Part shown: piece by piece, positions 877 to 13,424 of the stretch
Position numbering within the stretch: the stretch's first letter is position 1
How the letters are laid out: each line of letters begins with the position of its first letter
Assembly: GCA_021772565.1 (NCBI GenBank)
Contig: JAJFLR010000002.1
Location: forward strand, 1-39,915
Direction of reading: 5' to 3'
Source: Opitutales bacterium
Lineage (GTDB): Bacteria; Verrucomicrobiota; Verrucomicrobiia; Opitutales; JAJFLR01
DNA: 39,915 bases
Made by a program: the position numbers and the translations under genes
The notes under the pieces: generated by a model
Database searches by the model: none
What the model saw: only the letters and a program-made list of their open reading frames with translations
Told to the model about the DNA's origin: nothing

Positions 877-1965
877 CTAAATCAAATGCTTTAAATCGTC
901 GGAATTAGTTATTTGCTTCACGACTTTCTTAATTTCTTGAGCTCTATTTTTTGGACAGATCAATGTCGCGTCTGGTGTTTGGACTACTATTAAATCGTCG
1001 ACTCCGATAAGAGCTGTTAAGTGTCCATCTTGATTAATGACTATATTTCCTGAACCCTCATTGATAAGAACTGTTCCCTTTTGGACATTGCCGTTTTCAT
1101 CAGCTGGGAAATGTCTGGCGACGGCAGGCCACTCTCCGACATCGTCCCAGTCAAAAGCGGACTCGATGACTAAAACTTTTTTAGCTTTTTCCATAACAGC
1201 GAAGTCGATGGAAATTTTTTCCAGGCCGGAATAATTTTTTTCTAAAATTTGATCAAGTGATCCGCCGTTTTTTATCCCATCACTAATTTTTAATAACGCA
1301 TCCCATAAAACCGGTGTATGCGTTTTAAGCTCATCAGCGATGGTTGAAGTTTTCCAAATGAACATTCCGGCATTCCAGTAATATTCTCCGGAATCAAGAT
1401 AAGACTGAGCAGTGTCCAAATTTGGTTTTTCAACAAATCGTTTTACCGCATAAACTTTTTGGGAATTAATTTCACACTGAACAGAATCTTTATGAATGTA
1501 GCCATACCCGGTAGCGGGGTAGGTTGGTTTTATGCCGACTGTCACTAAACCATTTTCCTGTTCTGCAGCTTGAAATGCAGTATCGAGAATTTTTTGAAAA
1601 CCGTAACTGTCTTCTATGACATGATCGGCCGGTAAAATTGCATAGACGCCATTTTCACATTTATTTTGAATAATAACTGTTGCTAACCCAACGGCTGCAG
1701 CGGTATCTCGACCAATCGGTTCACCGATAACCTGATCGGCTGTGAGTTGCGGGCAAACCTCAAGCACAGCATCACGTTGTTCTATATTTGTAATGATTAA
1801 TATATTTTCCTTGGGAACTAGATTACCCAAGCGATCCAATGCTTGAACGAGCATTGGCTTGTCGCCGACGATTGGCAGTAAATGCTTTGGTTTTTTTAAT
1901 CGACTTTGAGGCCAGAAACGTTCGCCTCTGCCTCCAGCCATAATTACAATAAATCGATTACTCAT
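877..1965 (-). CDS. manC: Mannose-1-phosphate guanylyltransferase
   Basis: The enzyme makes GDP-mannose from mannose-1-phosphate and GTP, a precursor of polysaccharides. The N terminus carries the nucleotidyltransferase signature GGRGERFWPQSR, followed by KPKHLLPI. Later come 'LPADHVI', 'GYGYIH', 'VKRFVEKP' and 'YYWNAGMFIWK', all family hallmarks in the right order. There is no C-terminal mannose-6-phosphate isomerase domain, so this is the short monofunctional form (362 residues from the chosen start). I chose the ATG at 1963-1965, right before 'RFIVIMAGG'. An upstream in-frame ATG at 2004 would add 13 residues unlike the family start. It is convergent with the DprA-like gene. It probably feeds the exopolysaccharide system encoded at 18-22 kb, which is an inference. 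Confidence 0.88.
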   Translation of the reverse strand: MSNRFIVIMAGGRGERFWPQSRLKKPKHLLPIVGDKPMLVQALDRLGNLVPKENILIITNIEQRDAVLEVCPQLTADQVIGEPIGRDTAAAVGLATVIIQNKCENGVYAILPADHVIEDSYGFQKILDTAFQAAEQENGLVTVGIKPTYPATGYGYIHKDSVQCEINSQKVYAVKRFVEKPNLDTAQSYLDSGEYYWNAGMFIWKTSTIADELKTHTPVLWDALLKISDGIKNGGSLDQILEKNYSGLEKISIDFAVMEKAKKVLVIESAFDWDDVGEWPAVARHFPADENGNVQKGTVLINEGSGNIVINQDGHLTALIGVDDLIVVQTPDATLICPKNRAQEIKKVVKQITNSDDLKHLI

Positions 1966-2064
1966 AGTTTTTTTAATTACTGCAATTCTTAATTTCTGAC
2001 GCATATAGCAAGAAAATTTTAATTTTTGTCAACGTAAGGAATGAAATGATGCGATGGTTTATGA

Positions 2065-2120
2065 CTTTTTTCTACATGGATTGCCACACGCACACTTGTG
2101 AGCTCGCAATGACAATTATT
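2065..2120 (-). repeat. Dispersed 56-nt repeat, copy 1 ('TGTCATTGCGAG' type)
   Basis: Read on the minus strand, this 56-nt unit starts AATAATTGTCATTGCGAG and ends ATGTAGAAAAAAG. It matches the unit at 8819-8874 over its whole length with about six mismatches and no gaps, in opposite orientation. Its core (GTCATTGCGAG ... GGCAATC) belongs to a class of intergenic repeats seen in many bacterial genomes. Here it lies directly upstream of the MoeB-rhodanese remnant, where the lost 5' half of that gene would have been. Confidence 0.8.
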
Positions 2121-2157
2121 AAGATAAAGTCTCTTAGGAGTGAGATTTCGATATTGA

Positions 2158-2953
2158 TTGGAATCGCTATTCAATCTTAACACTGGTTGTGAAATTACTG
2201 AATACTCGGAAAGATTAACACCGGACAATATTCTAGATATATTTTCGACTTTTGACATTATTGTCGCAGGATCTGATAATTTTCCACCGCGCTATTTAGT
2301 CCATAATGCAGCATTTTTTTACAAAATAAACCCATTGTATATTTGATTGTTTATCAATTTGATTGGCAAGTTTCATTAGTTTTAGTCTGTATGCGGGAAA
2401 TGGAAATAATCAATTAATTATGGGAAAAACCCTACTCGATCAATTATTTGTAATTGATGCATTGACGATGCGAAATCGAAGTATAAGAGTAAAAAAGGAT
2501 TATCACTGCCCTTTGTGAGGTTCGACCCCTTAAATTAATAGTATTGTCGCAAAAATTTATGATGATTGTTGTCAGTCAAATATTGGAAAAAATACAAATA
2601 AGATAAGTATGATGAGTAATGATTTAGAGCAAAATTTTGTAGAAATAGATGTGATTGATGCAAAGAAGAAACTTAATTCGAAAAATATTGATTGTCTGAT
2701 TGATGTCAGAGAGCCATTTGAGATTGAAATTTGCAAAATTGACACATCAATTAATTTTCCATTAAAGGATATCCCTGATCGTTATAATGAATTATCAAAA
2801 GAAAAATCAATTTTAGTTTACTGTCATCACGGTATGAGAAGTCAGCGAGCTGCTGAATTTTTAGTCAGCAAAGGATTTAAAAATGTCTATAATTTAAAAG
2901 GTGGAATAGATCAATGGGCTGTGAAAATTAATACGAAATTAAAGCGTTATTAA
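2158..2953 (+). pseudogene. Remnant of a MoeB/ThiF-rhodanese fusion gene
   Basis: Three colinear blocks in three reading frames recall a MoeB/ThiF E1-like adenylyltransferase with a C-terminal rhodanese domain. Block 1 (2158-2346) reads ERLTPDNILDIFSTFD, then GSDNFPPRYLVHNAA. Block 2 (about 2349-2378) reads YQFDWQVSL, matching the usual FDGQVSVF. Block 3 (2420-2953) reads LLDQLFVIDALTMRNRS and YHCPL, where the second zinc cysteine codon has become TGA (2516-2518). It continues GSTP, then TAA (2531-2533), then IN and on in the same frame into the rhodanese domain. The N-terminal half with the ATP-binding GxGxxG and about 40 codons between blocks 2 and 3 are missing. The ancestral protein would have adenylated the C terminus of a MoaD/ThiS-like sulfur carrier. 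Inactivation of the adenylyltransferase part is clear. Confidence 0.8.
2609..2953 (+). CDS. Rhodanese-like domain protein (surviving 3' end of broken fusion)
   Basis: This 114-residue open frame holds a complete rhodanese domain: 'CLIDVREPFEIEI', 'NFPLKDIPDRY' and the active-site loop YCHHGMRSQRAAEFL with the catalytic cysteine, ending 'VYNLKGGIDQWA'. Rhodaneses carry sulfur as a persulfide on that cysteine. The frame is continuous with the decayed MoeB/ThiF frame upstream apart from two stop codons, so it is the tail of a former fusion. Two adjacent ATGs at 2609 and 2612 could start an independent protein, with only a weak purine stretch upstream. All catalytic features are intact, so it may still be made and be selected as a stand-alone sulfurtransferase. 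The lipoprotein gene begins 16 bp after its stop. Confidence 0.75.
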   Translation: MMSNDLEQNFVEIDVIDAKKKLNSKNIDCLIDVREPFEIEICKIDTSINFPLKDIPDRYNELSKEKSILVYCHHGMRSQRAAEFLVSKGFKNVYNLKGGIDQWAVKINTKLKRY

Positions 2954-2969
2954 TTGTGTCAATATTTTT

Positions 2970-5003
2970 ATGAGAAAGTTTAAAGTCAGTTTAATATTCG
3001 TTTATTTAGGAATTCTGTTTTCTAGTGGATGCGGCCCTGTGGATGATTCTGCAGAAAATTCAAATTTGAAGAAAAGAATCGCGCTAAAGTTCAATTGGAA
3101 AAAGAATATTTCAGAAGATAAAGAGAAAACAGAAGATGGAGATGCAGAAATTATCGACAATTGGAAAAACGATTATGACGATACGGAATTAGCGAAACTT
3201 GCAGATCAATTTCATCCATGGAACCGGATGATTACTGGAGGTAAAGGTAATGATAAATATGAAAGAACTAAAAAATCTATAATTAATCAAGCGAAGGAAA
3301 TTATTGGTAAAGGCGTATTTAAGAGGATAGAAAAATTAGAAGATTATGGCCAATACAGAAGTTACATCAGTGGAGGTAAAGAAAAAATAGATGAGTTAAA
3401 AGCTGAATTTAGTGAAGAGTATATTTGGCCAATAGTCAGAGCGGAGTTGGATGTTAATGCGACTAGACAAATTTCTGTTGAATTACCTGTTGTAGCTACA
3501 GCGTTTGTTTTAACTAATGAAAGAAAATTTAAAAGTTTTCTGGTTAAACAATTTTCAACGATGAGGGACTGGTATCCTCTTCAACGATCAGGCTGGAATG
3601 CTAAAAATTTAGCTAAACAAGGAATTGCACCAAGTGATCTGGATGGTTCATGGTTGGCAACCGGTTATGGTATAAGGGCGATTACTGAAACTCTGGAAAT
3701 AATTTCAGATAATAGTGTCCATATGGGTCTTATTGTTATTTTGAAACGGTTATTAAAGAAAGAAGTTTTTAATATGGTCGATGACTGGCGAAGCCAGCGT
3801 CAGAAATTTATAGTAGATAAAGATGTCAATAGTCTGGAATGGGCTTTATACAATGAGGGACTTATTCGAGCGAGTCTCTATCTTGGTTTGAATAATTTTA
3901 ATCATGCATATCTACTCGGAGTAAATAATTTAAAATTATCGCTCGATGCAAACGGTGAAAAAGGTGAGATGGTTAACGGCTTATCTACTAAAAATAATTA
4001 TTTGATATCTATTCTCAATGCATCACGAGTGATGGCTTTAAATAAAGATTTTAGAGCAGTTGATCATTCCTTTTTTAAAAATGTTGGGTTTTGGGTTTTG
4101 AATCAGTTAGATCCAGTTAATTTAAATTCTGAATTAAATAGGGATAAGATGTATGGAGGCTCTCAAATGTTATTAAATGATCTAACTTTTATTGCTGCTG
4201 TTACGGGAAATCAAAATGTAGTCTGGGCACTACAAAACAGATTGGAAAATAATTCGGATACAATACATAAATTATTTTTTCAGAATTTACCAATAGTTGA
4301 TAAAGAATATCTTCCTCCTTTAAATTTAAAATATTCATCATCGACTATGTTAGCCTGGAAAAATAGTTGGGATAATGATGCAACTTCAGTATGGGTTACA
4401 GGCGGAACTGATTCAGTTGGATTGATTAAACAAATTAGAGGTCACATAAATTATGTATATAAGGGAATCCCAATTTTGATTAGTTCAAAAGTTATATCTG
4501 AATTGAATTTAAAAGAGAAAGACAAAATCAATCTTGCTGATTATTATAATGTTTTACAACTCGAAGATGAGATTCCTTTATTGGGTAAAACACATTTAAT
4601 TGTAAGAAAGAATAGTCCAAAAGAATTGGAAGCACGAATTAATTCAACGTTATGCTATGAATCACTTGATCATTGGTATCGTGATATATTTTGGAGCAAG
4701 ACTGAATTTAAGGTTGTTGATGATGTGTCTTTAAAATTGGGTAAACGTAAGAGTATTAGATTTTATTGGAATCTTGCTACACAATCTGAGGTAAAAATTA
4801 AAAAAGTTGACAGAAATTATGTCATATCATGGCCTCAAGCTGATATGGAATTACAGTTTAGTCGTCCTATTGCAATTTCTCAAGAATTGCGTAAAACAAA
4901 ATCCGGTTATCAGAATACGTGTCTGATTATTGACGTGACTGATAAATCCCCGACATTTAGACTGAAAACCCGAATTATTGCCAAAGACCCTGAAAAGGAG
5001 TGA
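2970..5003 (+). CDS. Heparinase II/III-like lipoprotein
   Basis: This 677-residue protein starts with a lipoprotein signal peptide whose lipobox is LFSSGC, so it is probably anchored in a membrane on the periplasmic or surface side. A charged linker (about 25-60) leads into a helical region of about 350 residues with many aromatic positions, consistent with an alpha/alpha toroid. A beta-rich C-terminal half follows, with 'WDNDATSVWVTGGTDSV' and 'GHINYVYKGIPILI'. This order resembles heparinase II/III-type polysaccharide lyases, whose beta-sandwich normally has a 'GxxGHxHxDxG' type segment. Only one histidine (GHIN) is visible here, so catalysis is doubtful. Substrate cannot be inferred. It is followed after 59 bp by metH, with no obvious functional link. 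Confidence 0.55.
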   Translation: MRKFKVSLIFVYLGILFSSGCGPVDDSAENSNLKKRIALKFNWKKNISEDKEKTEDGDAEIIDNWKNDYDDTELAKLADQFHPWNRMITGGKGNDKYERTKKSIINQAKEIIGKGVFKRIEKLEDYGQYRSYISGGKEKIDELKAEFSEEYIWPIVRAELDVNATRQISVELPVVATAFVLTNERKFKSFLVKQFSTMRDWYPLQRSGWNAKNLAKQGIAPSDLDGSWLATGYGIRAITETLEIISDNSVHMGLIVILKRLLKKEVFNMVDDWRSQRQKFIVDKDVNSLEWALYNEGLIRASLYLGLNNFNHAYLLGVNNLKLSLDANGEKGEMVNGLSTKNNYLISILNASRVMALNKDFRAVDHSFFKNVGFWVLNQLDPVNLNSELNRDKMYGGSQMLLNDLTFIAAVTGNQNVVWALQNRLENNSDTIHKLFFQNLPIVDKEYLPPLNLKYSSSTMLAWKNSWDNDATSVWVTGGTDSVGLIKQIRGHINYVYKGIPILISSKVISELNLKEKDKINLADYYNVLQLEDEIPLLGKTHLIVRKNSPKELEARINSTLCYESLDHWYRDIFWSKTEFKVVDDVSLKLGKRKSIRFYWNLATQSEVKIKKVDRNYVISWPQADMELQFSRPIAISQELRKTKSGYQNTCLIIDVTDKSPTFRLKTRIIAKDPEKE

Positions 5004-8000: not shown

Positions 8001-8791
8001 ATAAAAAACATGGAGAACATGCACATGAGCTCTACAATGATGCTCAAAAATTGCTGGTAGAAATTATTGAGAATAAACATTTTCAGGCACGTGCAGTTTT
8101 TGGGATCTGGCCAGCCAATAGTGTGGGCAATGATATTGAAATTTATACTGATGAAAGCCGTAGTGAAATTTTAACCACATTTCATTTTACACGTCAGCAA
8201 AAAGAAAAAATCGGCGATGATGAAAACTATTATTCACTTGCTGACTTTGTTGCGCCAAGAGAAACAGGCATTAGTGATTATCTCGGAGGTTTTGCAGTAA
8301 CAACCGGACATGGGGTTGAAGAGTTTGCCAAAAAATTTGAAAAAAATCACAATGATTATGATGCAATAATGGCAAAGGCATTGGGTGACAGGCTTGCCGA
8401 AGCATTTGCTGAATTGATGCACAAAAAATTTCGTGATCTAGTTGGTTTTGGAAAGGATGAAAAATTATCGCATACTGATTTAATCAAAGAAAAATATCGT
8501 GGTATTAGACCAGCTGCAGGCTATCCGGCATGTCCTGATCATACAGAGAAGCGAATTTTATTTGATCTATTACAAGCTGAGGAAAATACTGGAATTACTT
8601 TGACTGAAAATTATGCAATGTATCCGGCTAGTTCTGTGTCCGGGCTTTATTTTTCCAATCCAAATGCAAAATATTTTAATGTTGGATTGATTGATAAGGA
8701 TCAGGTTACGGATTATGCAAAGCGTAAAAAAATGCCTTTAAATACAATGGAGAAATGGTTATCACCCAATCTTGGTTATGATCCTAAGTAG
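5063..8791 (+). CDS. metH: Cobalamin-dependent methionine synthase
   Basis: MetH transfers a methyl group from 5-methyltetrahydrofolate to homocysteine through B12. All four modules are present in 1242 residues, the normal full length. The homocysteine domain has DGAMGTMIQ and the zinc cysteines in GINCALGA (C255) and GGCCGTS (C318, C319). The pterin domain has [16 protein letters not shown]. The B12 domain has [15 protein letters not shown] with the axial ligand H770. The C-terminal reactivation domain binds S-adenosylmethionine and has [16 protein letters not shown]. No cobalamin riboswitch is visible in the 59 bp upstream. The organism therefore needs B12 from synthesis or uptake. The gene stands between the heparinase-like lipoprotein and a repeat-filled spacer. 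Confidence 0.97.
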
Positions 8792-8818
8792 GCGAAGTCG
8801 GAAGCAAAGTTGATTTAA

Positions 8819-8925
8819 AATAATTGTCATTGCGAGATCACAAATGTGAGCGTGGCAATCTATGTAGATAAAAGAAAAGTGATGGATCGCCGCGTCGCGT
8901 TGCTCCTCGCGATGACAAAATAATT
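8819..8925. repeat. Dispersed repeat copy 2 forming a long inverted repeat
   Basis: The first 56 nt (8819-8874) match the minus-strand unit at 2065-2120 with about six mismatches. The right part (8884-8925: GGATCGCC ... CTCGCGATGACAAAATAATT) is an inverted, diverged arm of the same unit. The whole forms a long imperfect hairpin: GTCATTGCGAG pairs with CTCGCGATGAC at the ends, and GTGGCAATC pairs with GGATCGCC towards the loop. It sits between metH and the DUF423 gene and could serve as a transcription end structure or be a remnant of a miniature mobile element. Confidence 0.75.
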
Positions 8926-8971
8926 ATTAATTCCTTGCTAAATATGTCAGGATTTTAGAATTGAGGTAATA

Positions 8972-9007
8972 ATGAAAAAAGAGCATTATAAATTTGGAAT
9001 ATTGTGA
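8972..9007 (+). CDS. Possible 11-codon leader ORF upstream of the DUF423 gene
   Basis: ATG at 8972 is preceded by a good GAGG ribosome binding site about six bases upstream. It opens an 11-codon frame ending in TGA at 9005-9007, which overlaps the GTG start (9004-9006) of the DUF423 gene. The best ribosome binding site in the region therefore belongs to this mini-ORF rather than to the longer gene. It may be a translationally coupled leader, or it may be the true start of the DUF423 protein separated by a frameshift. The sequence alone does not decide. Confidence 0.35.
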   Translation: MKKEHYKFGIL

Positions 9008-9396
9008 AAGTCAGTGGCAAATGCATTATTAAGTCAGCAGCAACTTTTGGAATTGTTGGAATTATACTAGGAGCGTTTGGAGCTCATGCATTGCAAGAAA
9101 CACTTGTAGCTAATGGGAAATTAGAGGTTTGGAAAACAGCAGTTGATTATCAGATGATTCACTCAGTTGGTTTATTATTTTTAGGATGGGTATTACATAG
9201 TTCTGATATTGATTTAAAAAACAATTGGTTGCAGCGATCATTTTGGTGTTGGGTTATTGGAATTTTTTTATTCAGTGGATCACTGTATGGATTATCAGTA
9301 GGCGGGCCAAAAATATTGGGGCCTATAACACCGATTGGAGGAGTTTTGTTTATATTGGGTTGGGCTTGTATTATTCCGGCAACAAAGAAATTTTGA
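9004..9396 (+). CDS. DUF423 family membrane protein
   Basis: This 130-residue hydrophobic protein has about four predicted membrane segments. It carries the DUF423 hallmark 'GIILGAFGAHAL' near the N terminus, followed by 'WKTAVDYQMIHSVGLLFLG', 'GIFLFSGSLYGL' and a terminal 'LGPITPIGGVLFILGWA'. The biochemical function of the family is unknown. The start shown is GTG at 9004, which has no ribosome binding site of its own and overlaps the stop of an 11-codon frame that does. The stop codon lies inside a hairpin-forming sequence (9380-9417). The neighbours are metH and transaldolase, with no evident link. Confidence 0.85.
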   Translation: MKVSGKCIIKSAATFGIVGIILGAFGAHALQETLVANGKLEVWKTAVDYQMIHSVGLLFLGWVLHSSDIDLKNNWLQRSFWCWVIGIFLFSGSLYGLSVGGPKILGPITPIGGVLFILGWACIIPATKKF

Positions 9397-9417
9397 TGAG
9401 AAAAATTTTCTTTGTTG
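9380..9417 (+). terminator. Hairpin spanning the DUF423 stop codon
   Basis: CAACAAAGAAATTTT (9380-9394) and AAAAATTTTCTTTGTTG (9401-9417) form a near-perfect stem of about 15 bp with a one-base bulge around a 6-nt loop. The stop codon TGA (9394-9396) is at the apex. There is no clean U-tract after the stem, so intrinsic termination is only one possibility; it could also protect the mRNA end. Confidence 0.45.
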
Positions 9418-9497
9418 TAATTAGATTGTAAGGATTTAATGTAGGCCATAAGTAGTTTGTCGGGTAGAATTTTTTAAAATCAAAAAAATTAAGAAAT

Positions 9498-10499
9498 ATG
9501 AATGATAAAGGAAATAATGTGTCAGTGCTAGCTGGAAATCAATTAGATCAATTGAAGAATTTTACGGTGGTTGTTGCCGATACCGGAGATTTTGAATCTA
9601 TCAAAGAATATGAGCCACGTGATGCGACGACAAACCCATCACTTATTTATCAGGCGGTTCAAATGGATGAATACGAACATCTCTTAGAGAAAGCTATTGC
9701 CGATAATACAAACTCAGGTAAAATCGGTGATGAACTAATTGATAAAATTATCGATCATTTGCTGATTCTTTTTGGCAAGGAGATATTAAAAATTATACCA
9801 GGTAGAGTCTCAACTGAAGTTGATGCGCGTTTGTCATTTGATACTGATAAAACTATCAAAAAAGCCAAAGAACTAATTGATCTGTATGAGAGGAATGAAA
9901 TATCCAGGGATCGAGTATTAATAAAAGTAGCATCGACATGGGAGGGAATTCAAGCAGCTAAACAGTTAGAGAAGGAAGGTATTCACTGTAATTTAACTTT
10001 GCTTTTTTCGTTACCACAGGCAATATCATGCGCTGAAGCCAATATTACATTAATCTCACCATTTGTCGGTAGAATCTATGATTGGTATAAATCTAAAACC
10101 GGAGACGAGTATGTGGGAGAAAATGATCCTGGTGTTCAATCTGTTGGCAGTATTTATAAATATTATAAAAAATTTGGTTATAAGACTGAAGTAATGGGAG
10201 CAAGCTTTCGCAATACCGGTCAAATAATTGAATTGGCCGGCTGTGATTTATTAACTATCAGCCCAAATTTATTATCAGAATTATCTAAGTCTGACGTTAA
10301 GATTGAGAAAAAATTATATCCCGAATTGGCAGAAAATGATAATTCAATAACTAAAATAAGTCTTGATGAAAAAACTTTTCGCTGGATGCTCAATGAGGAT
10401 GCAATGGGGACAGAAAAATTATCAGAGGGAATACGAAAATTTGCTGCTGATATCGAAAAACTAGAAGATATAATAGAGAATCAGTTATTGGATAAATAG
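9498..10499 (+). CDS. tal: Transaldolase
   Basis: Transaldolase moves a dihydroxyacetone unit between sugar phosphates in the non-oxidative pentose phosphate pathway, in the cytoplasm. The 333-residue length fits the TalB-type enzyme. Visible signatures are '[11 protein letters not shown]'-like [14 protein letters not shown] near residue 40, '[14 protein letters not shown]', the Schiff-base lysine in [16 protein letters not shown] (K143), '[12 protein letters not shown]', '[12 protein letters not shown]' and '[12 protein letters not shown]'. It starts at an ATG 101 bp after the DUF423 gene and stands alone as a transcription unit as far as can be seen. Confidence 0.96.
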
Positions 10500-10565
10500 A
10501 TTGGTCTTCAAACTTGTATTAATTCAACCATAATTGATTTTTTGTATTAGAATTTACTAAACGTT

Positions 10566-13424
10566 ATGAATTCATTAAATAAAATTAAGAACACTGTATT
10601 AGCATTTGGATTACTGATATTTCACATAGAACTATATTCAACAGATAATCTGATTCATGATTTTACATTACTGTCTCCAAATGATGAAGGTGGTGTTGTT
10701 GAGGGTGTCGATAATGAGCCATCGACCAAAAGTATTTACACAATTGAGAATGATCCCGGCTTAGCTAATGTTCCCGGTATTAATAAGGAAAAAGTTGCAT
10801 CAAGTGTAGGCAAAGTAGAATTTACTGGAGTGAGCCCCGTTTGGTATGAAGTTTTCCCTACACCAATTAATTTTAATAATTTTGATAAAATAGGTTTTTT
10901 TATTAGAGTTGCTACTGATACTGGGCAAGTACCAGTCATTATAAAATCTGGTATTGGAGCAGGGAAACAATCATTAGTAACAATTAATACAACTCATATT
11001 CAAGGAGATACAGCTCTTAGAACAGACTGGAGGTGGATTGAAATTCCAATCACTGATTTTGTTGGCAATGCAGATTTGAGTATTATCAATACTATACAGG
11101 TAGCCAGAGTAAGTAATAGTAGCGGTACATTTTTCACAACAACCTGGAATACTAATTTTTGGATTGATGATTTAATATTGTTGGCGCCTGCATCACAATT
11201 TAATGTTACATTATCAACGCCTGTTGGTTCTAGTTTTATTGTACCTAATGGGACAGCTACAATAAATGTAAAGGCTTCAGTAACTCAAGGAGGTAATGTA
11301 TCTGTGGGTCAAAATATTGATTTTACGATAAAAACAGGAACAGGGCAATTTACCGGAAATACAACTGTAACTACTGATGCTAGTGGAGAAGCAATTGTTA
11401 CTTATCAATCAAGTAAAGCAAATGAAATTGTAGAAGTAGTGGCTACTGTTAATGGTACGCAAAATTCTGGGGCTATATTATTACAGCAGGGAATTATAGA
11501 AAATTTTGAAAATGGTGTTTTATTTAATGGAATAATATCATTTTTCGGTGAAGATGTGGAAGGAACTAAAACCGCGACAGAACGTTTAGTTGATGATATA
11601 CTAACAGCTAATAATAAGATTGCTCTTTTACAAACTGACGCAGATGGATTTGCCGATTCAACTAACAGTCGGGTTATTGGAATATCTAAAAAGTTTTCTC
11701 AACCAATATCTATAAACACAAGTCTGGTTAACGAAGTTAGATATTCTGTTAGAAGTGATAATTTAGATGGTATTCGAACAGTAGCGATTGAACTAGTAAT
11801 AGGAGATGGCGGTGATGATGGAGATGCGAATAACGGTAATGAAACTGGAAGTACATGGATACAAAAATCGGGCCAACAATTATCCTTAATTAATTTAAAT
11901 GGAAAGGAATTTATTGAAAATGCTGTATCATTATTGAATGGATTTGTAGTTTCTAACAGACCTACAGATACGAATACAACAGACAATCAACTTCCAGTAG
12001 CAAATTTTGATTTATCTAATATTAATGGATTTAATATACTGATGATACGGAACTCTGGATCTAGTGGTGAGAGAACATTGTTTGTTGATAATATTATTTT
12101 GGCAAAGTCTCCAGTAACGATTACTACCAACCCCAGTATCATAGTTCCTAATGGACAATCGACTACTGTAGTAAATGCTAATTTGGCTCCTTTTGGCAAT
12201 GCATTAGCTGGGAAGGATGTCATCTTCGAAATTCTAACAGGTGGTGGATTATTTACCCCTGAAAATTCCACACAGACGACAGTAACTAGCGATGCAAGCG
12301 GAAATGTATCTGCAACTTATCAAGCTGGGACTGAACCAGGTGTTGTTGTGATAAAAATTTCAAATACAGAATTTGCACTACAGTCATTAGCATTTATCTA
12401 TCAAGGAGTAATTGAAAATTTTGAAAGCCGTTTGGGGGGAGCGATAGATCTAGCAGGATTTGGTAATGATTTAGGAAGTGGAACCATCAATAGTGATCAA
12501 TCTAGAAGTGGAAATAGTTCATTTCAACTTCAGTTAGATGCAGATGGATTTGAAGCGACTGCATTAAGAGCGATAGGTGTGAGTAAGACCTTTGATTCTG
12601 TAATTGATTTGAGTAATTTTACAGATGTTCAATACTGGGTAAAATCCGATCTAAAAAGTAGCGATGTAACTGAAAAACCTAATGTTATAGATCAGGAAGC
12701 TGTGGTAGTTGCAATTGAGTTAATTGAAGGTGCTGGAGGTGTAAATAATGGAAGTGGCAGTACCTGGAGGCAATTAGCTCTGCGACAGATTGAAAAACAC
12801 TTGACCGGACTGGATAGCAGTAAATTTAATCAAATAAAAATTCCATTTAGTGAATTTTTCAAAGTGCAAGGGGATACTACTGCTACGAGTCTTAACAGTA
12901 CACTATTGTCAAATATTTCTGGAATAAATATTATCGTTAGTAATAATTTAGTTGGGACACCTCAATTCAGTGTTTATATTGATGATATATCGTTTGGTAT
13001 TGGTGGGGGCGATCCATCAAGCCAAATTTCATTTGCTCAATGGAGACTGGAGAATTTTATTCCACAGAGAGTAAATAATGATGCGTTTAGTGGTAGAAAT
13101 TCTGATCCAGATAGTGACTTAATAAGTAACGAAGAAGAATATATATTTGGATCAAAGCCGGACACTCCAGATAGTCCGCCAATTTTATTTAACCGAATTC
13201 TAAATAATAAGTATGAATTATTGTTTAATACGAATGTGCGCGCAGGAGATATTAACAATTTTATTTTAGAGGGAACATTAGACTTTTCAATTTGGACCCC
13301 AGCAGGAATAACACCGTCTTTGGTTTCTGAAAATGATAAATTGAGAAGCTATAAAATTGAAGTTGATGCAGGAAATGACTCTAGTCAGCAAAAGTTTACA
13401 CGATTAAAGTTTAATTTGAATTAG
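10566..13424 (+). CDS. Large modular secreted protein with Ig-like and carbohydrate-binding-like repeats
   Basis: This 952-residue protein has a hydrophobic N-terminal stretch of about 15 residues that probably acts as a signal peptide. A first beta-rich module (about 25-215) ends 'FWIDDLILLAP'. Then an Ig-like module with the invasin/Big-type pattern ('VTTDASGEAIVTYQSS') alternates with a module starting IENFE, and the pair repeats once ('VTSDASGNVSATYQAG', then VIENFE). The IENFE modules share 'DADGF', 'GVSKTF'-type, 'VAIELIEG', 'GSTW' and a terminal 'FVDNIILA/YIDDISFG'. This resembles galactose-binding-like carbohydrate-binding modules. The C terminus has a calcium-loop-like DPDSDLISNEEEYIFGSKP module frequent in Verrucomicrobiota surface proteins. 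No catalytic domain is recognised; binding to polysaccharide or adhesion is an inference. Its last 14 bp overlap the convergent hemH. Confidence 0.6.
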   Translation: MNSLNKIKNTVLAFGLLIFHIELYSTDNLIHDFTLLSPNDEGGVVEGVDNEPSTKSIYTIENDPGLANVPGINKEKVASSVGKVEFTGVSPVWYEVFPTPINFNNFDKIGFFIRVATDTGQVPVIIKSGIGAGKQSLVTINTTHIQGDTALRTDWRWIEIPITDFVGNADLSIINTIQVARVSNSSGTFFTTTWNTNFWIDDLILLAPASQFNVTLSTPVGSSFIVPNGTATINVKASVTQGGNVSVGQNIDFTIKTGTGQFTGNTTVTTDASGEAIVTYQSSKANEIVEVVATVNGTQNSGAILLQQGIIENFENGVLFNGIISFFGEDVEGTKTATERLVDDILTANNKIALLQTDADGFADSTNSRVIGISKKFSQPISINTSLVNEVRYSVRSDNLDGIRTVAIELVIGDGGDDGDANNGNETGSTWIQKSGQQLSLINLNGKEFIENAVSLLNGFVVSNRPTDTNTTDNQLPVANFDLSNINGFNILMIRNSGSSGERTLFVDNIILAKSPVTITTNPSIIVPNGQSTTVVNANLAPFGNALAGKDVIFEILTGGGLFTPENSTQTTVTSDASGNVSATYQAGTEPGVVVIKISNTEFALQSLAFIYQGVIENFESRLGGAIDLAGFGNDLGSGTINSDQSRSGNSSFQLQLDADGFEATALRAIGVSKTFDSVIDLSNFTDVQYWVKSDLKSSDVTEKPNVIDQEAVVVAIELIEGAGGVNNGSGSTWRQLALRQIEKHLTGLDSSKFNQIKIPFSEFFKVQGDTTATSLNSTLLSNISGINIIVSNNLVGTPQFSVYIDDISFGIGGGDPSSQISFAQWRLENFIPQRVNNDAFSGRNSDPDSDLISNEEEYIFGSKPDTPDSPPILFNRILNNKYELLFNTNVRAGDINNFILEGTLDFSIWTPAGITPSLVSENDKLRSYKIEVDAGNDSSQQKFTRLKFNLN

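Follow-up and report, generated by a model that had tools for sequence, protein, structure and literature searches.

The window analysed here is the whole of contig C2 (39,915 nucleotides) of the 3.57-Mb draft genome of an Opitutales bacterium, the only member of its genus and of its family in our genome comparison. Close to its start it carries manC and, divergent from it, the remains of a MoeB/ThiF-type gene whose last block continues in frame into an intact rhodanese gene. The features are listed below; residue numbers refer to the intact MoeB-rhodanese fusion resident elsewhere in the same genome.

877–2004, minus strand: manC, mannose-1-phosphate guanylyltransferase (Pfam NTP_transferase, 7.5e-40, and ManC beta-helix); an alternative start is possible at 1965.
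2023–2120, no strand assigned: dispersed repeat, occupying the place where the promoter and the first codons of the fusion would be expected.
2161–2316, plus strand: fossil ThiF/MoeB block 1, resident residues 92–143 (Pfam ThiF, tblastn and HMM).
2316–2378, plus strand: fossil ThiF/MoeB block 2, resident residues 143–163, in a different frame, with the break at a T run.
2379–2419, plus strand: internal-deletion junction, 41 bases in place of 53 resident codons (residues 164–216, including the CYRC motif).
2420–2608, plus strand: fossil ThiF/MoeB block 3 and linker, in the third frame, with stops TGA (2516–2518) and TAA (2531–2533).
2609–2953, plus strand: intact single-domain rhodanese of 114 aa, start ATG at 2609 or 2612 (Pfam Rhodanese, 2.5e-22).
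2970–5003, plus strand: downstream gene for a predicted lipoprotein of 677 aa that has no Pfam match, part of the surroundings and outside the fusion.

The dispersed repeat is abundant: comparison of window positions 2005–2165 with the genome itself returned 48 matching places (including itself), mainly over query bases 19–116, and a copy of the same repeat was also noted at 8819–8874 of the window. Structured RNA was not found in the upstream repeat, whose fold is no better than that of shuffled sequences (z 0.35). The lipoprotein gene, which begins 16 bases past the rhodanese stop, was considered as a synteny marker and rejected; its homologues occur in 10 of 273 genomes of the order (own genome counted), and lipoprotein loci fetched from other genomes with 1.5-kb flanks contained no rhodanese, manC or MoeB match. 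Elsewhere in the window, a 160-aa ORF near the contig end (388–870) matches the DprA family (Pfam PF02481, 5.3e-9), a length that is short for DprA, and a 952-aa protein (10566–13424) contains a bacterial Ig-like domain (Big_1, 7.5e-12) along with a weak invasin D3 match that lies under its cut-off.

A preliminary description of this DNA had read ThiF/MoeB-like blocks in three frames, ending at a TGA in place of the second zinc cysteine of a CPxC motif, followed by an intact rhodanese domain in the frame of the last block and with ATGs of its own. Our analyses bear out this reading. The ORF at 2158–2346 has a Pfam ThiF match (E = 3.3e-10), and the ORF at 2363–2518 by itself has no Pfam match. 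When the resident fusion was used as a tblastn query, residues 92–143 aligned to block 1 (54% identity, 1e-15), residues 143–163 to block 2 in the second frame (48% identity, 5e-4), and residues 217–391 to positions 2420–2950 in the third frame, through the linker and into the rhodanese, interrupted by the TGA and the TAA. The TGA aligns at resident residue 249. With an HMM built from 72 intact fusions, blocks 1, 2 and 3 score 52.1, 8.8 and 19.3 bits, in the correct order and on the plus strand; all three are significant against a null of 300 random sequences generated with a first-order Markov model fitted to the region, among which the highest score was 6.1 bits. Judged by these alignments, the blocks are a true fossil of a MoeB/ThiF gene, with homology to the ThiF/E1 domain of MoeB confined to the fossil blocks. 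A tree of fusions of at least 350 aa that carry a family label places the fossil among the MoeBR rows, apart from a MoeZR-like clade. A viral origin and a plasmid source were considered and rejected; there is no relative in viral contigs, and the only plasmid matches are below 60% identity.

The rhodanese that follows is complete by its Pfam match, by structure prediction and by fold comparison. It retains the active-site cysteine (Cys72, codon 2822–2824) in the loop CHHGMRS, as expected for the C-terminal rhodanese of MoeBR, and every one of the 17 invariant columns of a 16-row alignment in which fused domains are combined with standalone ones. An AlphaFold2 model of the 114 residues (pLDDT 92.3, pTM 0.84) predicts a complete rhodanese fold encoded by a free ORF; its best Foldseek matches include the rhodanese of human MOCS3 as well as GlpE from E. 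coli, with E 2.1e-08 and a query-length TM-score of 0.78 to 1gmx. In named genomes, most of its best matches come from Verrucomicrobiota (Opitutales, Cerasicoccus, Puniceicoccaceae). Placement by a rhodanese-domain tree alone was tried and gave no resolved position, with 110 columns for 150 rows. Translation would begin at 2609 or 2612, which roughly matches the start of standalone relatives. A simple motif test found no Shine-Dalgarno motif upstream of this ATG; of the 27 starts listed for the window, just one has a Shine-Dalgarno-like motif by the same test, so that this lineage may initiate without one and an ATG by itself may suffice here.

The divergent neighbour manC provides a marker of the ancestral locus. 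We collected 146 rhodanese loci, named records included, after collapsing those identical in their last 60 residues; since they were drawn from part of the 181 genomes with hits, the counts are to be read as at least the numbers given. manC lies within 2.5 kb in 41 of these loci and is divergent in all 41. Twenty of the manC-linked loci carry a MoeB-rhodanese fusion and 21 a standalone rhodanese, the latter 77–177 bases from manC, and the order manC, fossil, rhodanese in the window is the same arrangement.

Together, these observations make it quite probable, in our judgement, that an intact MoeBR divergent from manC lost its E1 half to decay here and that the rhodanese half was kept as a free gene. 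The ancestral state would have been an intact fusion of the MoeBR type at 2161–2953, with manC as its divergent neighbour, an arrangement found in many Opitutales. Another MoeBR, on contig C20, would have rendered the E1 (adenylyltransferase) half redundant; this implies that the C20 copy was present before the decay and was the cause of the redundancy. The E1 half would then have decayed through deletions, a frameshift and stops, with the rhodanese half staying under purifying selection, and the outcome would be a free 114-aa GlpE-like sulfurtransferase with its own ATG.

The preliminary description had left it to be seen whether the genome holds another moeB and a moaD, and it holds both. 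The fusion on contig C20 is intact (391 aa), with both CXXC motifs and its own rhodanese with an active-site cysteine. It adjoins NapG- and NapH-like ferredoxin genes, and in the tree it stands beside f5 copies sited at manC (SH-aLRT 88). A moaC-mobA-moaD-moaE cluster is present as well. On contig C20 (L096) we also observed three related ORFs in tandem (8161–8922, 8960–9697 and 10304–11026) with a common N-terminus and a tail that we take to be PEP-CTERM-like.

Among manC-linked loci, a second strong MoeB was found in 16 of 21 standalone genomes versus 1 of 17 fused genomes; once relatedness is corrected for, 4 independent pairs are left and the association does not reach significance (median p 0.25). 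The search covered 17 of the 20 fused genomes, three named Cerasicoccus being set aside, and the cut-off for a strong MoeB (E<1e-60) was picked after a gap in the E-values had been seen. MoaE was searched for in 39 genomes, 25 of which had a match. It was found in 15 of 16 manC-linked standalone genomes with a second MoeB and in 8 of 9 fused genomes, and in none of the 11 genomes that have a standalone rhodanese and no strong MoeB hit (5 manC-linked, 6 not). Exceptions to the pattern are one fused genome (G023) and one standalone genome (G021) that have MoeB and no MoaE; G110, which is 75% complete, has no MoaE either. The search for MoeB brought up short ThiF-family genes with one stop within the match in G098 (contig C301), G230 (contig C116) and G049 (contig C2), possibly more pseudogenes. 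We also noticed two longer ORFs, L129 (G153, 501 aa) and L128 (G055, 573 aa), whose translations read as MoaE followed by MoeB and a rhodanese-like tail; they would be triple fusions of molybdopterin-synthesis parts, and the MoaE profile matches the 501-aa frame in G153.

These distributions bear on what the free rhodanese does. The fission could be real and the rhodanese could nevertheless feed sulfur in trans to the resident MoeB and MoaD, a role that we regard as unlikely but not far-fetched, given that the rhodanese domains of MOCS3 and MoeBR are described as sulfurating MoaD-type carriers (PMC3227635, PMC5372717) and that moaD and moaE are present in the window's genome. The resident MoeBR, however, has a rhodanese of its own with an active-site cysteine, and the standalone gene is kept in the 11 genomes that were tested and gave no strong MoeB hit. 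With MoaE absent from all 11, the standalone rhodanese is seen to outlive the molybdenum-cofactor pathway, and the kept rhodanese probably works outside molybdenum-cofactor synthesis. Because the standalone gene is kept in relatives without moaE, we infer that the free rhodanese bears a persulfide on Cys72 and passes its sulfur on to an acceptor that is not MoaD.

The preliminary description had further seen in this locus a fusion in decay of which one domain may be kept, and the contrast between the two halves supports this. We defined near-invariant columns on 72 intact fusions (MoeZR-like rows, L152 and L105 set aside), with the tested row excluded. At the 95% level, departures are seen in 7 of 16 ThiF columns of the fossil and in 0 of 19 columns of the rhodanese (Fisher p = 0.0017), as fission by loss of one domain predicts when the lost domain decays and the kept one is constrained; the contrast is similar at the 98% level (6 of 14 vs 0 of 15, p = 0.006) and at the 90% level (10 of 25 vs 2 of 23, p = 0.019). 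Intact fusions have at most 2 ThiF departures at the 95% level, and none reaches the number seen in the fossil. On this contrast, selection appears to have preserved the rhodanese. Mean identities do not decide the matter: the window rhodanese is rather diverged (mean identity as low in only 6 of the 72 intact fusions), and the identity difference between the halves is not unusual (as low in 15 of the 72). What supports retention is therefore the set of invariant sites, together with the evidence from relatives. For four pairs of relatives with a standalone copy at this locus, dN and dS were 0.017 and 0.41, 0.10 and 0.40, 0.13 and 0.53, and 0.04 and 0.49, giving, with dS unsaturated, dN/dS ratios of about 0.04, 0.26, 0.24 and 0.08. 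By this measure, the standalone copies at the manC locus are under purifying selection.

The same data bear on the idea that the whole gene is a young pseudogene, in which the rhodanese is no longer selected and has merely not been hit so far. The small number of disabling lesions, the moderate divergence of the rhodanese and its 2 departures at the 90% level would all fit. A pseudogene of equal age throughout, however, predicts rhodanese losses near the ThiF rate, where none was seen, and standalone rhodanese genes are kept at the same locus in relatives; we therefore consider this account improbable.

The order of events can also be turned around, with a standalone rhodanese being older at manC and the fossil MoeB representing a later fusion or insertion that failed. 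We built a manC tree of 41 rows, using 40 of the 41 loci (the fused L201, whose manC is partial, was set aside). On this unrooted tree, fused and standalone states change into one another 5 times, at least 4 of them on supported branches, and the window manC groups with five standalone rows of family f8 (support 89/89). Such counts cannot by themselves separate gain from loss, and some families have standalone copies only (for example f10, with 33 loci), which gives this order some footing. Fused copies, on the other hand, occur at the manC locus in family codes f3, f5, f13, f20 and f24, most of them at equal spacing from manC, and a fused copy is also found in G156 of f21 (L027, L056). What lies in the window is a complete fusion in decay, whose block 3 reads on across the linker and into the rhodanese without a change of frame. 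A standalone origin thus seems very improbable to us, and it is because of the fossil that we read the direction as loss rather than gain. Most likely, the MoeB half has been lost several times at the manC locus in this order, and the window represents one case in progress.

The nature of the damage leaves even less room for the remaining explanations. An assembly or sequencing error is conceivable in a draft genome of 124 contigs, and the first frame break does fall at a T run (2313–2319), but an error would have to account for the loss of two segments, for two stops and for changes at six or seven near-invariant positions within less than 500 bases, with the neighbouring genes intact, and is hardly credible. 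The first of the lost segments, residues 1–91, adjoins the dispersed repeat; neither it nor residues 164–216 have a counterpart in the fossil. In place of the single open frame of a MoeBR, the fossil has two frame changes and two stops, and its N-terminus is gone; of the two CXXC zinc motifs, the first falls in the lost segment and the second has its second cysteine replaced by a stop. Recoding, by which the TGA would be read as selenocysteine or frameshifting would yield one product, is practically negligible: the TGA stands exactly at an expected cysteine, but the genome has no SelB above cut-off, the TAA follows 15 bases on, and both the N-terminus and the segment with CYRC are gone, a combination of deletions, substitutions and stops that points to a broken gene and not to recoding.

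We tentatively suggest, as an idea that is plausible but falls short of probable, that the Opitutales fusion has two jobs, as an E1 for MoaD and in a cofactor-independent sulfur transfer by the rhodanese, of which the latter is more strongly kept. The E1 half could then be shed whenever a genome gains another E1 or abandons the molybdenum cofactor, with the rhodanese staying at manC. If true, the fusion would not be solely a device for MoaD sulfuration, and rhodanese domains of the MoeBR/Uba4 type elsewhere may have free-standing substrates. The locus also points to a further function of the rhodanese domain in a cofactor enzyme that is itself well known.

Literature searches returned no description of this locus in Verrucomicrobiota and no record joining rhodanese, Verrucomicrobi and MoeB. 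The protein families themselves are known. MoeBR and MoeZR of mycobacteria, like MOCS3/Uba4, are described as fusions of a MoeB-type E1 with a C-terminal rhodanese (PMC3227635), and the Opitutales genes resemble MoeBR in their domain order, in the two CXXC motifs that MoeBR has and in a rhodanese with an active-site cysteine. The genome also resembles those of mycobacteria in carrying an extra copy, which in mycobacteria is reported as gained by horizontal transfer (PMC3227635). Unlike in MoeBR and MOCS3, one copy here has a broken E1 half, and its rhodanese stands alone. In this it is like the single-domain rhodaneses GlpE and PspE of E. coli (PMC2593051), with one rhodanese domain of about 110 aa, the cysteine in a loop and the same fold. 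It differs from GlpE in scoring 64.2 bits against the equivalog cut-off of 102 (NCBIfam NF001195) and in a sequence that is like the rhodanese half of MoeBR (C-terminal RY, CHHG loop); the MoeBR-like sequence therefore marks it as a descendant of the fusion and not as a GlpE orthologue.

Fission of genes by loss of a component domain is likewise a known process, with folB-folK-folP of eukaryotes as an example (PMC4224340). For the most part, the fission of fusion genes is deduced from its end states. The present order has intact fusions, an intermediate in decay and clean standalone genes; with all three stages at one locus, the order of the steps can be read and the question of which half is indispensable is answered. 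The window shows gene fission through loss of a domain at its half-way stage, a clear new instance in which the readable intermediate, the fixed locus and the repeated outcome are what is new. As described for folB-folK-folP (PMC4224340), one fusion gene has been split repeatedly, partly by loss of a component domain; unlike that system, the present one is bacterial, lies at one fixed locus, and includes a decaying intermediate that can still be read.
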